The notes beneath the pieces were generated by a model, which worked only from the letters and a program-made list of their open reading frames with translations, searched no databases and had not been told where the DNA came from. Position numbers and translations under genes: made by a program. A DNA stretch of 44,280 nucleotides from Deltaproteobacteria bacterium (GTDB lineage Bacteria > Desulfobacterota > DSM-4660 > Desulfatiglandales > Desulfatiglandaceae). Numbering within the stretch: position 1 is the first letter of the stretch; every line of letters starts with the position of its first letter. Positions 22,188-43,158 of the stretch are shown here, piece by piece. The stretch lies in assembly GCA_019309145.1 (NCBI GenBank), contig JAFDGR010000005.1:1-44280 (forward strand). Reading direction: 5' to 3'.

Positions 22188-23213
22188 TTACCTTTTCCTG
22201 GACTCCTGTACTTTGTTGATTGCATCAATGATCTCAATGGCGCCCAACCCAACCGGGCAGACATCAGAACACCGCCCACATCCGACACATCCTGTCTCAT
22301 GGTAATTCATCAGGTCGAACTTGAGCTTGTGTTCGTACCTCCGGGCCAGCCTGGCCCCTTGGGTCGTCCTGGGGTTATGCCCGCTTGTCTCCCTGGTAAA
22401 CCCGGAAAAGAGACATGCATCCCAGTTCCTGCATCGGAGATACCCTGCATCACCGGGATAATCGTACACATTGAAACAGGTACATGTCGGGCAGACATAG
22501 GTGCAACCACCACACTTGATACAGCGCTCTGCCAGGAGCTCCCAGAAGGAATCATCCACCTTATTTGCAAGGAGTTTTTCAGTGGCGCTCTGTACCCCGT
22601 TTGTAGCCATCCCGGCATGTGCCGCCCTCTCTTCTATTGCCGCAAGTTTTTGCCTGTCCTCTTCGCCAGCCGAGTCAAAAAAGCCGTTTCCAAGAATGGC
22701 TTTTCCCCTCTCGCTCCCTGCCATGGCGATAAAATAACTCCCCGCATCGAACAACTGGACATCATGGGGTATATCAGTAAGAAAGAGTTCACCTCCTGTT
22801 GCCTTGCAGAAACAGGTCTCGCTCGGCGGTTCGTTACAGGCGACCACAATACAGGTCACCGCGTACCTCCTCGCGAAGTAATGGGGGTCAACCAGGTTGT
22901 CCCTCCTCATAAACCTGTCCGTAAACGCGATGGCCCTCATGTCGCAGGGCCTCACGCCAAAGACAATCGTTTTCTCGTGCTCGGTTATCTTTGTAATCGT
23001 CCCCTGTCCAAACAGCAGGAGGTTTTCTGTCTGGGGGAAGAGAACCGTCTTTGCAGAGAAGGGTGCCTTGCCGACCTCACCTGTATAAGTCCCGTCCCCA
23101 AGGGGCAAAAGCAGCATGTCCCCATTTTCGGTGCGTTGGGGGCAGTAAACCTGTGCCTCCCTGTTCATCCCGCGAAGAAAGTCCTGGACCTTTTCTTTCG
23201 CCAGTATCTTCAT
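22188..23213 (-). CDS. iron-sulfur subunit, sulfhydrogenase beta/HydB type
   Basis: This 341-residue protein resembles the beta subunit of group 3b [NiFe] hydrogenase/sulfur reductase. FGVRPCDMRAI lies near residue 85, a Cys pair ETCFC follows, and two ferredoxin motifs lie at the C-terminus: CIKCGGCTYVCPTCTC and CVGCGRCSDVCPVG. It should carry electrons between a catalytic subunit and the flavin subunit. Here the catalytic partner is FdhA, whose stop overlaps this start in TGATG; no hydrogenase gene is present. It therefore probably acts as the electron relay of an NAD(P)-linked formate dehydrogenase complex. Confidence 0.87.
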   Translation of the reverse strand: MKILAKEKVQDFLRGMNREAQVYCPQRTENGDMLLLPLGDGTYTGEVGKAPFSAKTVLFPQTENLLLFGQGTITKITEHEKTIVFGVRPCDMRAIAFTDRFMRRDNLVDPHYFARRYAVTCIVVACNEPPSETCFCKATGGELFLTDIPHDVQLFDAGSYFIAMAGSERGKAILGNGFFDSAGEEDRQKLAAIEERAAHAGMATNGVQSATEKLLANKVDDSFWELLAERCIKCGGCTYVCPTCTCFNVYDYPGDAGYLRCRNWDACLFSGFTRETSGHNPRTTQGARLARRYEHKLKFDLMNYHETGCVGCGRCSDVCPVGLGAIEIIDAINKVQESRKR

Positions 23214-25249
23214 CAGACCCTCCTGATACTGACTGCACAGCTCTTGTATTCCGGGATCTTGGCCACAGGATCAAGCGCACAAATGGTTAATTCATTGATA
23301 TTGCCTTCACCATAATGGAACGTGCCGAACACATTGCGCTCGGGAATATCCAGGGTTACATGCACGGGGAGCCGCAGTTCCCCCCGCCTTGATTCCACGG
23401 CAACCACGCTCCCCTCTCGTATTCTCAAAGCCCTGGCATCTTCCGGGTTCATTTCAAGCACGGACCGGGGAGCCTCCCTTTCCAGTATGGATACCTTCCT
23501 TGTCATGGTTCCGGTATGAAATTGGGGCCCCACCCTGCCGGTCGTCAGGAGAAAAGGATATTCGTCATCAGGGATTTCTGCCGGTGGAATATACTCCTTT
23601 GGCTCGAAGTGCCCGAGTCCCCTGGCGAAACCATTTTTATGGAGAAAGGGTGTCCCCGGATGATGTTCGTCAGGACAGGGCCACGGGAGGCCCCATGAGG
23701 TCTCGAGCCGCTTCCAGGTAATGCCGCCGTATGAAGGCGTGAGGGTATTGATTTCATCCAGGATCTCTTCCGGGCTTTCATAGCGCATCGGGTATCCTGC
23801 CCGGGTGGATATTTCGCAGAAGACCTTCCACTCCTCCATGCATCCCTTCAATGGACTCATCGCCTGCCTTGAAAGTTGCACCCTCCTCTCAGTATTTGTA
23901 AAGGTCCCCGCTTTTTCGGCAAAGCTCAATGCCGGGAGAATGACCTGTGCATAGTGTGCTGTCTCGGTCATAAAAATATCCTGCACCACAAGAAATTCCA
24001 GTTTTTTCAGAGACCTCGCCGCATGTCTTGCGTCCGGCTCGCTGATCGCCGGGTTCTCACCCAGGATGTAGAGTCCCTTCACTTCGCCTGCTTCGGCGCC
24101 ATGCACCATTTCCGTGACGGTCAGCCCCGGCTCCCTGCTGAGGCCACCTACCTCCCAGGCTTTTTCAAACTTCCGGGTGACAGCCTCATCATGCACATGC
24201 TGATAGCCGGTGTACACATTGGGTAGCGCGCCCATATCGCAGGCCCCCTGGACGTTGTTCTGCCCTCTCAGGGGATTGACGCCCGTGGAAGGAAATCCCA
24301 CGTGCCCGGTAAGCATGGCCAGGTTGGCGAGCGTCTTCACATTATCCGTTCCCGTAATGTGTTGAGTAATACCCATGGCGTACAGGATCATGGCCTTCTT
24401 CGACTTTGCATACATTTCTGCGGCTTTTCTCAATAATTCTTCATCTACACCGCACAATCCGGTTACTCTCTTCGGATTATAGGCGGCGACAATTGCCTTC
24501 AATGCGTCGATGTTTTCCGTCCGCTGTGCGATAAAAGGAACATCTTCCCACCCCTCCTCCAGGATGATATGCATCATCCCATTCAAGAGGGGAACATCTG
24601 TACCCACCCGGTGCTGCAAGTGGACGGCCGCCAGTTTCGCCAGGCCTATCCTCCTCGGATCGGCCACGACGAGTCCGGCATTTTTCCGATGGACTGCTTC
24701 AATAATCCTTGCGGCTATGAGGGGATGCTGTTCCGTGGTATTGGAGCCGATAACGAAAAAGGTTTCAGCATCATCCATTTCCCGGATTGCATTGGTCATG
24801 GCACCGCTGCCGAAGGAGGCGGCAAGACCTGCCACCGTGGAGGAGTGTCAGAGACGAGCGCAATGATCAATGTTATTCGTCCTGAATGCCGCCCGTGCCA
24901 TTTTCATGAACACATAATTCTCCTCGTTGGTCACCTTTGCGGAAGAGAAAAAACCGAGAGCGCCGCTTCCATACCGCTCGCCAATATCCCCCAGCTTTTT
25001 CGCGACAAGGTCGAGGGCCTCATCCCAGGTGGCCTCCCGCACGATCCCGTGCTCCCGGATGAGCGGGGTCCTTATGCGCGCCGGGTGGTTGACGAATTCG
25101 TGGGCCCTCCACCCCTTGATACACAGGGAACCCCTGCTCACCGGATGCCCACGGCTCGGTATCACCCCAACCGCTCTCCCCTCTTTTACTTCCAGATAGA
25201 AATTGCACCCACACCCGCAAAAGGGACAGACAACCAGTGTGCTGGACAT
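23213..25249 (-). CDS. fdhA: selenocysteine-containing formate dehydrogenase alpha subunit
   Basis: This 678-residue molybdo- or tungstopterin enzyme interconverts formate and CO2. The [4Fe-4S] ligands are Cys8, Cys11, Cys15 and Cys43 (CPFCGCGC, SLCIKG). An in-frame TGA at 24848-24850 sits in HCARLUHSSTVAGL, the family's active-site motif with selenocysteine (residue 134; position 140 in E. coli FdhF). A SECIS hairpin follows. The rest is canonical: GSGAMTNAI, GVNPLRGQNNVQGACDMG, GENPAISEPD, NTERRVQLSR, and a C-terminal pterin domain with TTGRVGPQFHTGTMTR. Conceptual translation that stops at TGA splits it into 133- and 540-residue pieces. Both ends overlap neighbours in TGATG, which implies a tightly coupled three-gene operon. 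Sec insertion requires selABCD elsewhere in the genome. Confidence 0.95.
24818..24850 (-). promoter_or_regulatory. UGA selenocysteine codon and bacterial SECIS element of fdhA
   Basis: After TGA (24850-24848) an 11-base spacer leads to GGTGGCA-GGTCT-TGCCGCC, a 7-bp stem (one G-T pair) with a GGTCT apical loop. The loop starts 18 bases after TGA and begins with GG, as in the E. coli fdhF SECIS recognised by SelB. Confidence 0.9.
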
Positions 25250-26115
25250 CAGAGGGCCTCCTTGACATGACGGATTTCTGCATAATTAAAGACAGGTCCG
25301 TCCGTGCAGCAATAAAACTCTCCCATGGCGCAGTGACCGCATTTGCCCACTCCGCACTTCATCATCCGTTCCAGGGACACGAAAATACGGTCCAGAGGAA
25401 TATTTTTCTTCAGGATCTCATTGAGAACAAAACGATACATGATTGGCGGCCCACACAGAGCACAGTACGTGGTTTCAGGATCAAGCTCCACTTTGTCAAA
25501 AAGACCGGTTACCACGCCCACATACTGGCGCCAGATTCCCTCTTCATCCGTATCAACACTCAGAAGATATCTCATATCCGTTCTATTCATCAGGCTCAGG
25601 AGTTCATACTTGAAAAGCACATCATCAGGGCTCCTCGAACCATACATCAGGAACAGGTTCCCATATTCCGCCCGGTTATCCAGCACCGTCCACAAAAGTG
25701 ACCGCAGCGGGGCCAGGCCAAGGCCTCCTGCCACCAGGAGAAGGTCCTGTCCCTGCAGGAGTCTAACAGGAAAACCCGTGCCAAACGGCCCCCGCAATGC
25801 TATCAGATCCCCTTTCTGCAATCGGAACAGGGCACTGGTGACCAGGCCGGCTTTCCTTACACATATTTCTATAATGCCGGGACGCGTGGGCGGTGATGAT
25901 ATGGATAGGGGGGCTTCACCCACTCCAGGGACACTGACCTCAACAAACTGCCCGGGACCGTGCGAAAACAGCTCTGCGGCGTTCTCGTTCACAAACCGGA
26001 GCTGAAAAAGCCGGTGCCCTTCCATTTGAGGGAGAATCCTCTCGATCCTTGCCGGATTCGGCTGAAAGATCAAATCGACCTCTGCCGCGTTTTCTCTTGC
26101 CATTTCCACTGTCAC
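25249..26115 (-). CDS. FAD/NAD(P)-binding oxidoreductase, sulfhydrogenase gamma/HydG type
   Basis: This 288-residue ferredoxin reductase-like protein has FAD binding at APLSISSPPTRPG, NAD(P) binding at LLLVAGGLGLAPLRSLL, CGPPIMYRFV and a C-terminal [2Fe-2S] motif CGVGKCGHCAMGEFYCC. It belongs to the family of the gamma subunit of group 3b hydrogenase and dihydroorotate dehydrogenase electron-transfer subunits. As first gene of the operon with fdhA and the HydB-like subunit, it should link formate oxidation to NAD(P)H. The GTG at 26115 sits too close to GGGAGGGGT; the GTG at 26109 or ATG at 26103 may be the real start. Confidence 0.88.
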   Translation of the reverse strand: MTVEMARENAAEVDLIFQPNPARIERILPQMEGHRLFQLRFVNENAAELFSHGPGQFVEVSVPGVGEAPLSISSPPTRPGIIEICVRKAGLVTSALFRLQKGDLIALRGPFGTGFPVRLLQGQDLLLVAGGLGLAPLRSLLWTVLDNRAEYGNLFLMYGSRSPDDVLFKYELLSLMNRTDMRYLLSVDTDEEGIWRQYVGVVTGLFDKVELDPETTYCALCGPPIMYRFVLNEILKKNIPLDRIFVSLERMMKCGVGKCGHCAMGEFYCCTDGPVFNYAEIRHVKEAL

Positions 26116-40168: not shown

Positions 40169-41140
40169 TCATTCACCTGTATCCGCGAAAAGGGCATTCA
40201 CTCTCTTTTCAAGTGCATCCCTGATCTCACGCATAAAGGCAATCCCTTTTCCCGCAGGATCGGGGATATCCCACTCCTCCGCCCTGACGCCGGGGAACAG
40301 GGGGCAGGCGTCTTCACAACCCATGGATACCATCAATGCAGGATCAAAAACTCCCTGGATTGCCTCCAATGATGTGGGCTTCCGGTAGGCCATATCAATA
40401 CCCTTTTCGCTCATGGCCTTGATCATGTCCGCATTGATTTCTGCTGCCGGTGCACTCCCCGCACTTTCAACATCAAGTCGATCCCCGAAATAGAATTGCG
40501 CAAAACCACTCGCCATCTGGCTTCGGCAGGCATTTTCCCTGCAGACGAAGAGGACCTGTTTTCTCCTCAGTTCCGGTTCGATAAGCTCGGCCGCTTTTTC
40601 CCTTGCATCGGCAAACGCGGTAGGATGGTGATCTATATCTCCCACGTGCTCTATCATTCTATATCCCAGGGTTCCCTCAAAATGAGCACCGACCGCGTCG
40701 AAAAAATACTTGGCTGTCATCTGCGTTCCTTCAAAAAGGTTTTTCCCTTTTGTGGCGCCTACCGCCAGCAGGAAGCCTTTACGCCACTTGCGTCCCGGAT
40801 CAGTGAGTTTATGGGTATATTTCCTGGCCCACAGGGCCTGGGACCGGTCGATCAGGGCCTTCAACTGGGCCGTAGGGCCGTAGAAAAACATGGGGGTTGC
40901 CATGACGATGAGGTCGGCTTTCCAGAGCAGGTGATATACCTCCTGCATATCATCTTCCAACGGGCAAAACCCCTTCCGGTCACAAGTCCCACATTCCTGG
41001 CACGGATCGATATGCATTCGCGCCACATCCAGTTGCCGGGTGTGGGCACCCCGTTTCGCCGCCTCTTCGAGGAAGGTAGAAAGCAGAGATGCAGTGTTTC
41101 CCTTTTTTCGTGGACTTCCCTGTAATCCGAGAACAAACAT
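40169..41140 (-). CDS. NADPH-dependent FMN reductase fused to arsenate reductase-type LMW phosphatase
   Basis: This 323-residue fusion has an N-terminal flavodoxin-like domain (GLQGSPRKKGNT, then Cys47, Cys50, Cys53 and Cys59 in CQECGTC, and ATPMFFYGPTAQLKALIDR) of the iron-sulfur flavoprotein family. The C-terminal domain (about 194-320) has the CX5R loop Cys200-Arg206 (FVCRENACRSQMA), the later Cys in SMGCEDACP, and WDIPDPAGK, as in thioredoxin-linked ArsC. The ArsC-like part should reduce arsenate with a thiol donor; the flavin domain may supply electrons. The adjacent Grx-FTR gene offers a thiol-reducing partner. This pairing in one chain is unusual. Confidence 0.9.
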   Translation of the reverse strand: MFVLGLQGSPRKKGNTASLLSTFLEEAAKRGAHTRQLDVARMHIDPCQECGTCDRKGFCPLEDDMQEVYHLLWKADLIVMATPMFFYGPTAQLKALIDRSQALWARKYTHKLTDPGRKWRKGFLLAVGATKGKNLFEGTQMTAKYFFDAVGAHFEGTLGYRMIEHVGDIDHHPTAFADAREKAAELIEPELRRKQVLFVCRENACRSQMASGFAQFYFGDRLDVESAGSAPAAEINADMIKAMSEKGIDMAYRKPTSLEAIQGVFDPALMVSMGCEDACPLFPGVRAEEWDIPDPAGKGIAFMREIRDALEKRVNALFADTGE

Positions 41141-41154
41141 CCGTCATGCTCCTT

Positions 41155-41730
41155 TTAAAAAGATGATTTTCTTCTTTCCGGGACATACACATGCGGAATC
41201 TTGTCCTCGTTCCACTCCTTTGAAACATAAAGATTGCAGTAGCAACTGCCATACTCCTTCACATCGGCCTCCCGATACACGCACGGACAGATAATATCCT
41301 TATCTTTTTCACGATCACCCGATGCCAGCCGGCAGGGGCAGGCCATGTATCCATACCGTTCTTTATTCACAAGGAGGGCTTCCAGGAGTTGAATGACGCG
41401 TTCCTTGTCCTTGTTGAAATAGTAGCCTTTTGGCTCCTGGATCTTTTTGAATGTCTCAAAAAGCAGTTCAACGTTGTTAGTAAGCCCGAGCGCCTCCCTG
41501 AGCTCGTCCTCTTTGTATCCCACAATGACTTTATCCCCGATAATGATGGTTGGAAACGAACAATTCGGGTTCCATTTTCTCACCTCTTCCAGGATGGCCG
41601 CCCGCTCTTCTCCTTCCAGCAAATCCACGTCCGTAAATTCATATTTCACCATGCAGTCATTCAAGAACCGTTTCGTGGCCTTGCAATGGCCGCAGGTGCT
41701 CAGCGAATACATTTTAACCGATTTTTCCAT
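41155..41730 (-). CDS. glutaredoxin fused to ferredoxin:thioredoxin reductase catalytic subunit
   Basis: This 191-residue protein has a glutaredoxin domain (redox site Cys13-Cys16 in STCGHCK, then FPTIIIGDK) followed by the FTR beta domain (about 100-185) with the ligands and redox cysteines Cys131, Cys133, Cys148, Cys150, Cys163 and Cys165 (ACPCRLAS, CPCVYR, CYC). FTR reduces thioredoxin-like disulfides with ferredoxin electrons through a [4Fe-4S] cluster, so the chain can reduce its own Grx domain. No FTR alpha subunit is present. The ATG at 41730 has GAGGG upstream. It sits between the YeeE pair and the ArsC fusion. Confidence 0.9.
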   Translation of the reverse strand: MEKSVKMYSLSTCGHCKATKRFLNDCMVKYEFTDVDLLEGEERAAILEEVRKWNPNCSFPTIIIGDKVIVGYKEDELREALGLTNNVELLFETFKKIQEPKGYYFNKDKERVIQLLEALLVNKERYGYMACPCRLASGDREKDKDIICPCVYREADVKEYGSCYCNLYVSKEWNEDKIPHVYVPERRKSSF

Positions 41731-41839
41731 GTCCCTCTCCCTTCTGTTCGTGCTGCGCATCACTCTCTCCCCTGAGTTGTTAGGAATAGACTGAAAGATT
41801 CATTTTGGCCATTGGTATTTGTCTCGAATTTCGGATTTC

Positions 41840-42649
41840 TTAACATCCCTCGTCTTCAACAACCACGGCCCCGGAGGGTTCTTCAGATGCAGCCGGTTTT
41901 GGAGGGGCCTTTTGAACTGCTTCTGTTTTTGGTTTCTCTTTGACAGCCGCAGCCGTCTTTTTCGCCGCAATTCGGTCAGGGTTGACAATGGCCAGGACAA
42001 GGCCAAGGGCCACAAGAAGCGCGGCCGCCCATTGTTTCGCTTTTCTTGAACCGACAGGCAGGGTCTCCGGGTCGCCCAGCTTGTTTTCCACCTTTTCCAC
42101 CAGCCAGTATACACCCACGGCCATGAGGCCTACCAGGAGGGCTATAACACCTGAGTTGATCTTCAGCACATCCGACAGACGCACTGCCCCCATGCTTCCC
42201 GAAGAGTAAAATGGTTCAATGAGCGGGAACAGCTCTGCAAAAATAATCGATCCCAGGATCATCCCCACGATAAATAGCAATCCGTCCAGTTTCCCCGAAA
42301 CTGTTGACACGACCGATGTGGTCGGTCAGTAACCGCCGATCACAAAGCCTATCCCGAGAACGAATCCCCCGACTATCTGGGGCCAGATATAAGTCGGCAG
42401 GAGGTATACTTTCGAAAGATCGATCCACCCGAATACCGAAAAGAAAAGCAGTCCCAGTATACATACCACGATGGCCGTAAACATGACCTTCAGCACCGCG
42501 AAGTCCCTGAGGTAAAAAATGCCTACCAGCTTCCTCGCGTTTCCAAAGCCGGCCCTTTCCAGGAGAAAGCCGAAGAGAACGCCGGTCAATCCGGCAAGCT
42601 GGAGGCTGTACGCGAAATCAAACCATCCGAACTTGTAAAGCGGTCCCAT
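41840..42649 (-). CDS. YeeE/YedE-family membrane transporter half, probable selenoprotein (in-frame TGA)
   Basis: This 269-residue protein, read through TGA at 42326-42328, is the second half of a two-gene YeeE/YedE transporter, the family that imports thiosulfate or related sulfur anions. It starts MGPLYKFGWFDFAYSLQ, with TM helices and FGFLLERAGFGNARK. At residue 108 the family's GYCPGT-like motif reads GFVIGGY-U-PTTSVV, and the sequence continues normally as SGKLDGLLFIVGMILG and IIFAELFP. A stop here would leave two pieces, neither complete, although the frame stays intact on both sides. A downstream hairpin fits a bacterial SECIS. The C-terminus is Ala/Pro/Lys-rich and ends EDEGC. Sec or a disrupted gene are the alternatives; Sec is favoured because the TGA sits at the Cys position and the genome uses Sec in fdhA. 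Confidence 0.82.
42287..42328 (-). promoter_or_regulatory. candidate SECIS element of the YeeE-like selenoprotein gene
   Basis: After TGA (42328-42326), 22 bases lead to CAGTTTC-GGG-GAAACTG (42303-42287), a perfect 7-bp stem with GGG loop. The loop begins 29 bases after TGA with G first, within the 16-37 range reported for bacterial SECIS elements. A second hairpin, GACCGA-CCACA-TCGGTC (42327-42311), overlaps the TGA itself. Confidence 0.55.
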
Positions 42650-43158
42650 CACAGCCACTCCTTTCTCAGGAAATACGCTGTCGCGTATGCTCCCGCAAAG
42701 ATGCAGAACATGAAGACCCAACTCCCAAAGGCCAGCTCCGAGGCCCCGGTCAGGGCCTGTCCGCTGGTACAGCCGCGGGCAAGCCTGGCCGCAAATCCCG
42801 AAAGGATCCCTCCAAACAGGGCGAGCCAGAGACGCGCGCTCACCCTTATGTTCGGGCCGCGGATAACCTCTCCTTTGACCCGGTTGGAGATGAAGGCGGA
42901 GAACAGACCTCCCAGACCTGCTCCCATGGTAAGAAAAACCAGCCACGCCATGAGTGGTGATCTTCCACCCGCCAGATATTTTGCATAATATGTGTTTGCA
43001 GCCGCATGTCCAGGGGCTACCAGGTTTACACCGGCCGTGGCGATCCTTGCGAAGGAAGAGGATGAACCAAGCCCTCTTCCCATGGTGTAAAAGCTGAACA
43101 GCAGGACCAGTCCCAGCAATGCACCAATGAGATACGGATTAGCATAACGAATCTTCAT
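42649..43158 (-). CDS. YeeE/YedE-family membrane transporter, first half
   Basis: This 169-residue membrane protein matches the N-terminal half of YeeE/YedE transporters. ARLARGCTSGQALTG carries the conserved Cys130 used for substrate passage in the family, flanked by several TM helices. The start has GGGAG upstream. Its stop and the next gene's start share a base (TGATG), so the two halves are coupled and probably assemble together. Thiosulfate, sulfur or selenium species are possible substrates. Confidence 0.9.
   Translation of the reverse strand: MKIRYANPYLIGALLGLVLLFSFYTMGRGLGSSSSFARIATAGVNLVAPGHAAANTYYAKYLAGGRSPLMAWLVFLTMGAGLGGLFSAFISNRVKGEVIRGPNIRVSARLWLALFGGILSGFAARLARGCTSGQALTGASELAFGSWVFMFCIFAGAYATAYFLRKEWL

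Follow-up and report, generated by a model that had tools for sequence, protein, structure and literature searches.

Introduction

The two-part form of the YeeE sulfur transporter, PmpA/PmpB, was reportedly first described in Serratia. Its two short proteins match the C- and N-terminal halves of YeeE, PmpA being equated with the C-terminal half and PmpB with the N-terminal half, and each carries one conserved cysteine (PMC11582611). The transporter is also known as a single chain, TsuA/YeeE of Spirochaeta thermophila (6LEO, 8J4C, 8K1R), with three pore cysteines and no selenocysteine (Sec). Two of its residues, Cys91 and Cys293, have both been called indispensable (PMC11582611), and the idea of a relay through pore residues, on which we draw below, is taken from work on TsuA and SoxT (PMC11582611, PMC11073785).

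A selenoprotein of the same Pfam family (PF04143), WP_012471001.1, is listed in reviews from 2022 (PMC9312934) and 2026 (PMC13188914). The table of the 2026 review covers 119 families and subfamilies and gives the motif of this protein as GUxSG; only one of the entries is for YeeE, and the motif of the PmpB described here does not occur among them. The same review treats forms that differ in Sec position as subfamilies of their own, and notes that several transporters are predicted selenoproteins whose precise roles are open (PMC13188914).

Here we describe a pmpA/pmpB-type gene pair from a draft genome of the Desulfatiglandaceae, in which an in-frame TGA at the presumed pore cysteine of PmpB is, in our judgement, very probably read as selenocysteine.

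Results

A two-part YeeE-type transporter with an in-frame TGA

The window is the whole stretch of DNA that was analysed, 44,280 nt of contig JAFDGR010000005.1 (assembly GCA_019309145.1). The features of the pair and its surroundings are as follows, in order of transcription.

42649..43158, minus strand: pmpA-type partner half-gene, 169 aa, immediately upstream of pmpB
42771..42769, minus strand: codon (TGT) of the pmpA pore residue Cys130 in RGCTSG, a Cys in the window
42658..42661, minus strand: GGAG, ribosome-site-like, 8 nt before the pmpB ATG, found by reading the sequence
42649..41840, minus strand: pmpB-type half-gene of a YeeE/YedE transporter, 269 codons if the TGA is read as selenocysteine
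42328..42326, minus strand: in-frame TGA, codon 108, in GGY-U-PTT, at the position of TsuA Cys91
42305..42328, minus strand: second predicted hairpin, beginning at the TGA itself, loop CCACA
42287..42303, minus strand: SECIS-like hairpin, 7 bp, loop GGG, 29 nt after the TGA
41843..41854, minus strand: C-terminal DEGC of the read-through product, common to 19/19 orthologues with an intact end
41155..41763, minus strand: glutaredoxin/ferredoxin-thioredoxin reductase beta chain (FtrB) fusion, Cys form, next gene after pmpB

The pmpB frame begins at an ATG (42649..42647) that overlaps the stop of pmpA, itself a TGA, in the sequence TGATG, and its final stop ends at 41840; between them lies a single internal TGA, with 107 codons before it and 161 after. 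An initial annotation, made from the letters alone, had described just such an open frame behind a start with a good ribosome site, and this is confirmed, with GGAG standing 8 nt upstream. It had also placed the TGA exactly at the conserved cysteine of the family, and indeed column 108 is an invariant Cys in an alignment of 35 rows (with U written as C). As a standard reading-frame call splits pmpB at this codon, the pore residue is hidden from view.

PmpB matches Sulf_transp (PF04143; E 7.6e-18, 65.5 bits vs a cut-off of 27) over positions 2-193 of the 310 in the profile, and also DUF6691 (29.7 bits vs 27); PmpA takes the other half of the Sulf_transp profile (177-309, E 6.5e-16). Aligned to TsuA, U108 of PmpB falls on Cys91 and Cys130 of PmpA on Cys293, and the position of Cys22 is Gly36 in PmpB. 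The phmmer E-values of these alignments are weak (0.078 and 0.046), but the NCBIfam TsuA model matches both proteins over these halves with E 7.4e-08 and 2.9e-07; scores against the TsuA models NF052577 (32.1 vs 400) and NF041049 (21.8 vs 645) stayed below their curated cut-offs. Two NCBIfam YedE models match PmpA and PmpB in the reverse order, and given this and the internal repeat in the family, the assignment of the halves is likely rather than certain. The AlphaFold model of PmpB (mean pLDDT 78.5, pTM 0.68) found no match in the PDB better than E 3.7; together with the reversed YedE order, this leaves the TsuA and Pfam alignments and published work (PMC11582611) as the basis for the assignment to Cys91 and Cys293. 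The pair resembles the described PmpA/PmpB in consisting of two proteins that match the two halves of YeeE, and differs in that its PmpB carries the probable Sec, has 269 aa rather than about 130, and ends in a DEGC tail.

A possible sulfur relay and its genomic setting

Read-through of the TGA would give a complete PmpB-type half of 269 residues, and we suggest that this half and the PmpA encoded upstream make up a single pore. Through it thiosulfate, polysulfide or sulfane sulfur would cross the membrane, touching first the PmpA cysteine (TsuA Cys293); the PmpB residue (TsuA Cys91), here presumably a selenol, would make the second transient contact. By analogy with TsuA, we favour such a relay as the role of the PmpA/PmpB pair, if by a modest margin. 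A selenol is ionised at neutral pH and is more nucleophilic than a thiol; perhaps it speeds or redirects the relay.

Neighbouring genes were compared across 85 loci, namely the best 80 of 581 matches from a contig scan and five from Sec genomes. Nearby genes included NrfD in 55, a ferredoxin-like subunit in 52 and a rhodanese in 61, counts for which some contigs were too short. In the other two lineages with a TGA-containing pmpB, introduced below, the pair is flanked by a ferredoxin-like subunit plus NrfD and, at its other end, by a rhodanese, with a molybdopterin-binding protein further upstream in one genome (G133). Neighbours such as NrfD and rhodanese tie the pair to polysulfide or thiosulfate metabolism.

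It is conceivable, if unlikely, that the Sec-containing PmpB serves selenium uptake or a redox function instead of sulfur import. Relatives of YedE have been linked to selenium metabolism (PMC5322559), and the gene that follows pmpB in the window, the glutaredoxin/FtrB fusion, could be taken to point the same way; however, PmpB scores 31.5 bits against the selenium-linked YedE model TIGR04112, whose cut-off of 200 is not reached, and the place of the pair between NrfD and rhodanese in the two other Sec lineages is a setting of sulfur metabolism. A role in sulfur transport is plausible, and the initial annotation's idea that Sec could suit selenium substrates remains a conjecture.

In the 15 contigs of the window's own family (L107-L121) among the best 80 of 581 matches, no NrfD match was seen, and a HEAT-repeat gene lies nearby in the window and in 8 of those 15. 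The glutaredoxin/FtrB fusion also follows the Sec-type pmpB in the other genome of the window's genus (G001), and is found in no other of the 85 loci (best 80 of 581 plus five).

Several further observations concern these surroundings. Among the matches listed, the order ferredoxin-like subunit, NrfD, pmpA, pmpB, rhodanese recurs in L122-L186 and L267-L270, on contigs named Calditrichota, Bacteroidota, Ignavibacteriota, Acidobacteriota and Verrucomicrobiota, which suggests a module that combines a polysulfide reductase with a dedicated sulfur transporter. The best NCBIfam match of the fusion at 41155-41763 is a double-selenoprotein family, below cut-off, and the gene has Cys here. Beyond it, at 40169-41140 on the minus strand, lies a fusion of NADPH-dependent FMN reductase and low-molecular-weight phosphatase/arsenate reductase domains.

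Constraint beyond the TGA

Were the TGA a true stop in a gene that is decaying or has been split, the product would be the first 107 residues. Such a reading would sit well with the pmpB copy of G001, which is frameshifted by a 1-nt deletion near codon 56, upstream of its TGA (either the assembly is wrong there or the copy is decaying), yet a 107-residue product would be left without its pore residue, and stops arising at random would not hit the invariant Cys in three separate families. Beyond the TGA the frame retains its DEGC end, and its dN/dS is near the values of intact Cys genes. After codon 108 this ratio stands at 0.163 for the window and G001, and at 0.150 and 0.135 for two Cys/Cys pairs; before codon 108 the values are 0.095 (50 codons) for the former and 0.035 and 0.032 (100 codons) for the latter. 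Within g78, a genus of another lineage with the TGA, the range is 0.195-0.334 after it vs 0.043-0.049 before. The part after the TGA is under constraint, weaker than that on the first part, in Sec and Cys genes alike, and we regard termination at codon 108 as very improbable.

DEGC closes all 19 of the 20 orthologues whose end lies on the contig (2 Sec, 17 Cys); of four further named contigs, L109, L117 and L118 share this end, and L120, with a match length not divisible by three, lacks it. In the 19 orthologues with an intact end, DEGC follows a long, variable stretch rich in Lys, Pro and Ala; the tail has the look of a flexible arm with a cysteine at its tip.

Codon 108 exchanges cysteine and TGA across lineages

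The set of close relatives comprised 61 genomes (the window's own and 60 others), of which 26 held a pmpB match at E 1e-6 or better. Among the 20 orthologues with at least 61% identity, codon 108 is TGC or TGT in 18 and TGA in two, the window and G001 (79% protein identity); Cys or TGA at residue 108, the pattern that the initial annotation proposed to look for in homologues, is therefore what they carry. In a sample of 395 genomes of the phylum (cut-off E 1e-10), 129 held a match and five had TGA at codon 108: the window's own, G098, G133, G219 and G173. Three of these (G098, G133 and G219) form the genus g78, at 47-48% identity, and G173 belongs to another family, at 38%, so that the codon is seen beyond the window's family in four genomes of two other families. 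Eight other matches in the phylum sample carry stops, and all have Cys at 108.

On a tree of 137 rows, three changes are needed for the six Sec rows, and well-supported branches force at least two of these; the placement of G173, on a long branch, is unsure. Three other genomes of its family were without a match, so that the case of G173 stands alone, and a search around it (148 genomes, 29 with a match) gave no new TGA at codon 108. A class search around G098 (8 genomes) matched only the three genomes already known, and plasmid records gave three matches, all below 60% identity. In the contig scan (591 stretches, 581 confirmed), the best 80 of the 581 had Cys at codon 108 in 80/80 and Cys at PmpA codon 130 in all 79 with a PmpA match, although the scan was biased against Sec, one of its two patterns having required Cys at residue 108.

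That TGA recurs at the exact codon in G001, from the same genus, and in two further families makes chance very unlikely. This recurrence also bears on the thought that the TGA is a sequencing or assembly error for TGC or TGT: the window comes from a draft of 404 contigs and the Cys codons are one substitution away from TGA, but the same error would have to have struck G001, at 79% identity, and four genomes of two other families, and we give this explanation hardly any credence. Least probable of all is a changed genetic code in which TGA stands for another amino acid, for which we found nothing in favour, and against which speak the 138 rows compared, with only TGC, TGT or TGA at codon 108, the TGA that ends pmpA in the window and pmpB in several Cys relatives, and the matches to tRNA-Sec, selA and selB in the genome. 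The candidate selenoprotein at a conserved Cys, as first proposed, is upheld by its Cys orthologues, the TGA orthologue within the genus, the Sec machinery and selection after the TGA, and we are highly confident, from these comparisons of sequence, that codon 108 is read as selenocysteine.

Selenocysteine machinery

The initial annotation had suggested looking for selA and selB in the same genome, and both are there above cut-off, as partial matches: selA just over its cut-off at a contig end (224-454 of 455), and two selB matches, the best of them covering 1-357 of 581. A tRNA-Sec match of 73.6 bits is likewise over cut-off. The genome is a draft (404 contigs, 94% complete, 6% contamination), and with 6% contamination the machinery contigs could be foreign.

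Across 24 genomes, selA was over cut-off in 22, selB in 22 and tRNA-Sec in 20 (18 above 70 bits). All three were present in the Sec genomes G000 (the window's own), G001 and G133; G098 was without selB over cut-off, G173 was without tRNA-Sec over cut-off and its selB carries an internal TAA, and G219 (73% complete) had none of selA, selB and tRNA-Sec over cut-off. The 18 Cys relatives had selA in 17, selB in 18 and tRNA-Sec above 70 bits in 14. Since Cys relatives mostly have the machinery too, it permits Sec and does not predict the gene that uses it.

A second in-frame TGA lies in the window at 24850..24848, in the frame 23213-25270 (minus strand), which we take to be the formate dehydrogenase alpha subunit (fdhA) and whose context, HCARL-U-HSST, is presumably typical for Sec. 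This frame is probably a second selenoprotein gene in the window.

The hairpin after the TGA

Published limits for bacterial SECIS elements are a loop of 3-9 nt with a G in its first two positions, a stem of 4-16 bp, a spacing of 16-37 nt and an MFE of at most -7.5 kcal/mol (PMC13188914). The hairpin with a G-rich loop that had been put forward at the right distance from the TGA holds up in its geometry, as the hairpins of the window and G001 lie inside the limits for stem (7 bp), loop (GGG) and spacing (29); its stability is another matter, for at -5.2 kcal/mol the window hairpin alone misses the energy limit, and only the surrounding stretch, at -10.0, falls within it. When the same stretch was folded throughout, the six Sec forms ranged from -5.4 to -12.5 and 128 Cys rows (duplicates included) had a median of -9.8, and the criteria for the hairpin alone were passed by 31/128 Cys PmpB rows and by 11/41 PmpA Sec rows. 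Cys homologues thus fold just as stably, and as energy does not tell Sec from Cys forms we rejected it as a SECIS test; a stable hairpin by itself does not speak for a SECIS.

Conservation of the stem was compared in turn. Both Sec genomes of the genus form the full set of seven Watson-Crick pairs, and the 18 Cys relatives form 2-5 of 7, or 3-6 of 7 once G-U is allowed; as the Sec form served to define the stem, part of this contrast is built in. The hairpin loop is UAGGUCU or UGGGUCU in g78 and GGUC in G173; in a plain fold, two of the three g78 genomes have the loop UAGGUCU, with no G in the first two positions. The Sec pair shows few silent changes over codons 109-125 (1/16 vs 35/97 elsewhere), but two of six Cys pairs are equally low (1/17 and 0/15), which makes this weak support. 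The Rfam SECIS_1 model had no match in the window's own genome and none in 14 control genomes, and being silent in all of these controls it is uninformative here; within the window, no match to an Rfam family came up to the gathering score.

Probable selenocysteine in one half or the other

To place the PmpB codon beside its partner, 131 loci were fetched, after dropping four duplicates, as a subset of the phylum matches. Sec was found in PmpA only in 38, in PmpB only in 6, in both in 0 and in neither in 83, with one half unseen in 4; outside the 131, G268 has a PmpA match with TGA, its PmpB being on another contig. In the 38 PmpA-Sec loci, codon 130 is TGA in GG-U-PSG, DG-U-PSG or GG-U-TSG and PmpB has Cys; the window's family is represented among these 38 by G031. 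Conversely, all six PmpB-Sec loci have Cys at PmpA codon 130. If the two were independent, about 1.8 loci with Sec in both halves would be expected among the 127 complete pairs, and none was seen (P 0.11, a value that ignores the relatedness of the loci); statistically, the exclusion of double Sec is not strong.

How does this relate to the selenoprotein already listed? WP_012471001.1 is of the same Pfam family, and there too Sec replaces a pore cysteine. Within the phylum, however, its GUxSG motif belongs to the PmpA half (TsuA Cys293), from which we infer that the protein is PmpA-type; in the window, Sec would lie in PmpB (Cys91) and PmpA has Cys, so the PmpB position is a different one. By the rule of the 2026 review, the PmpB Sec would count as a subfamily of its own, new within a selenoprotein family already known. 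The main texts of PMC2398784 and PMC5029168, that review's sources for YeeE, make no mention of YeeE, YedE or COG2391, and our literature search found no paper linking selenocysteine with DUF6691. Thus the initial annotation's belief that no Sec version of the transporter had been described fails for the family, given the GUxSG entry, and stands for the PmpB position as far as the literature is searchable; on that literature we consider the selenoprotein family known and the Sec position new; an unpublished GenBank annotation of this form may exist.

Tentatively, we could imagine that the pore contacts of PmpA and PmpB are alternative Sec sites, arrived at independently and never occupied both at once, giving a relay of one selenol and one thiol. 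In the window's family the DEGC arm might add another contact, and in the window's genus the glutaredoxin/FtrB fusion encoded next might service it. On the Sec reading, one two-part pore exists in three natural states, Cys/Cys, Sec/Cys and Cys/Sec, and with these the effect of selenium on rate, substrate choice and direction becomes testable for each pore position.

A last TGA is of another kind. In L074 (G196:C85), which resembles PmpB, the TGA falls outside the position of the conserved Cys (GMLUVHLL) and is probably due to mutation or error; the contig also holds a second pair with Sec in PmpA (L189).
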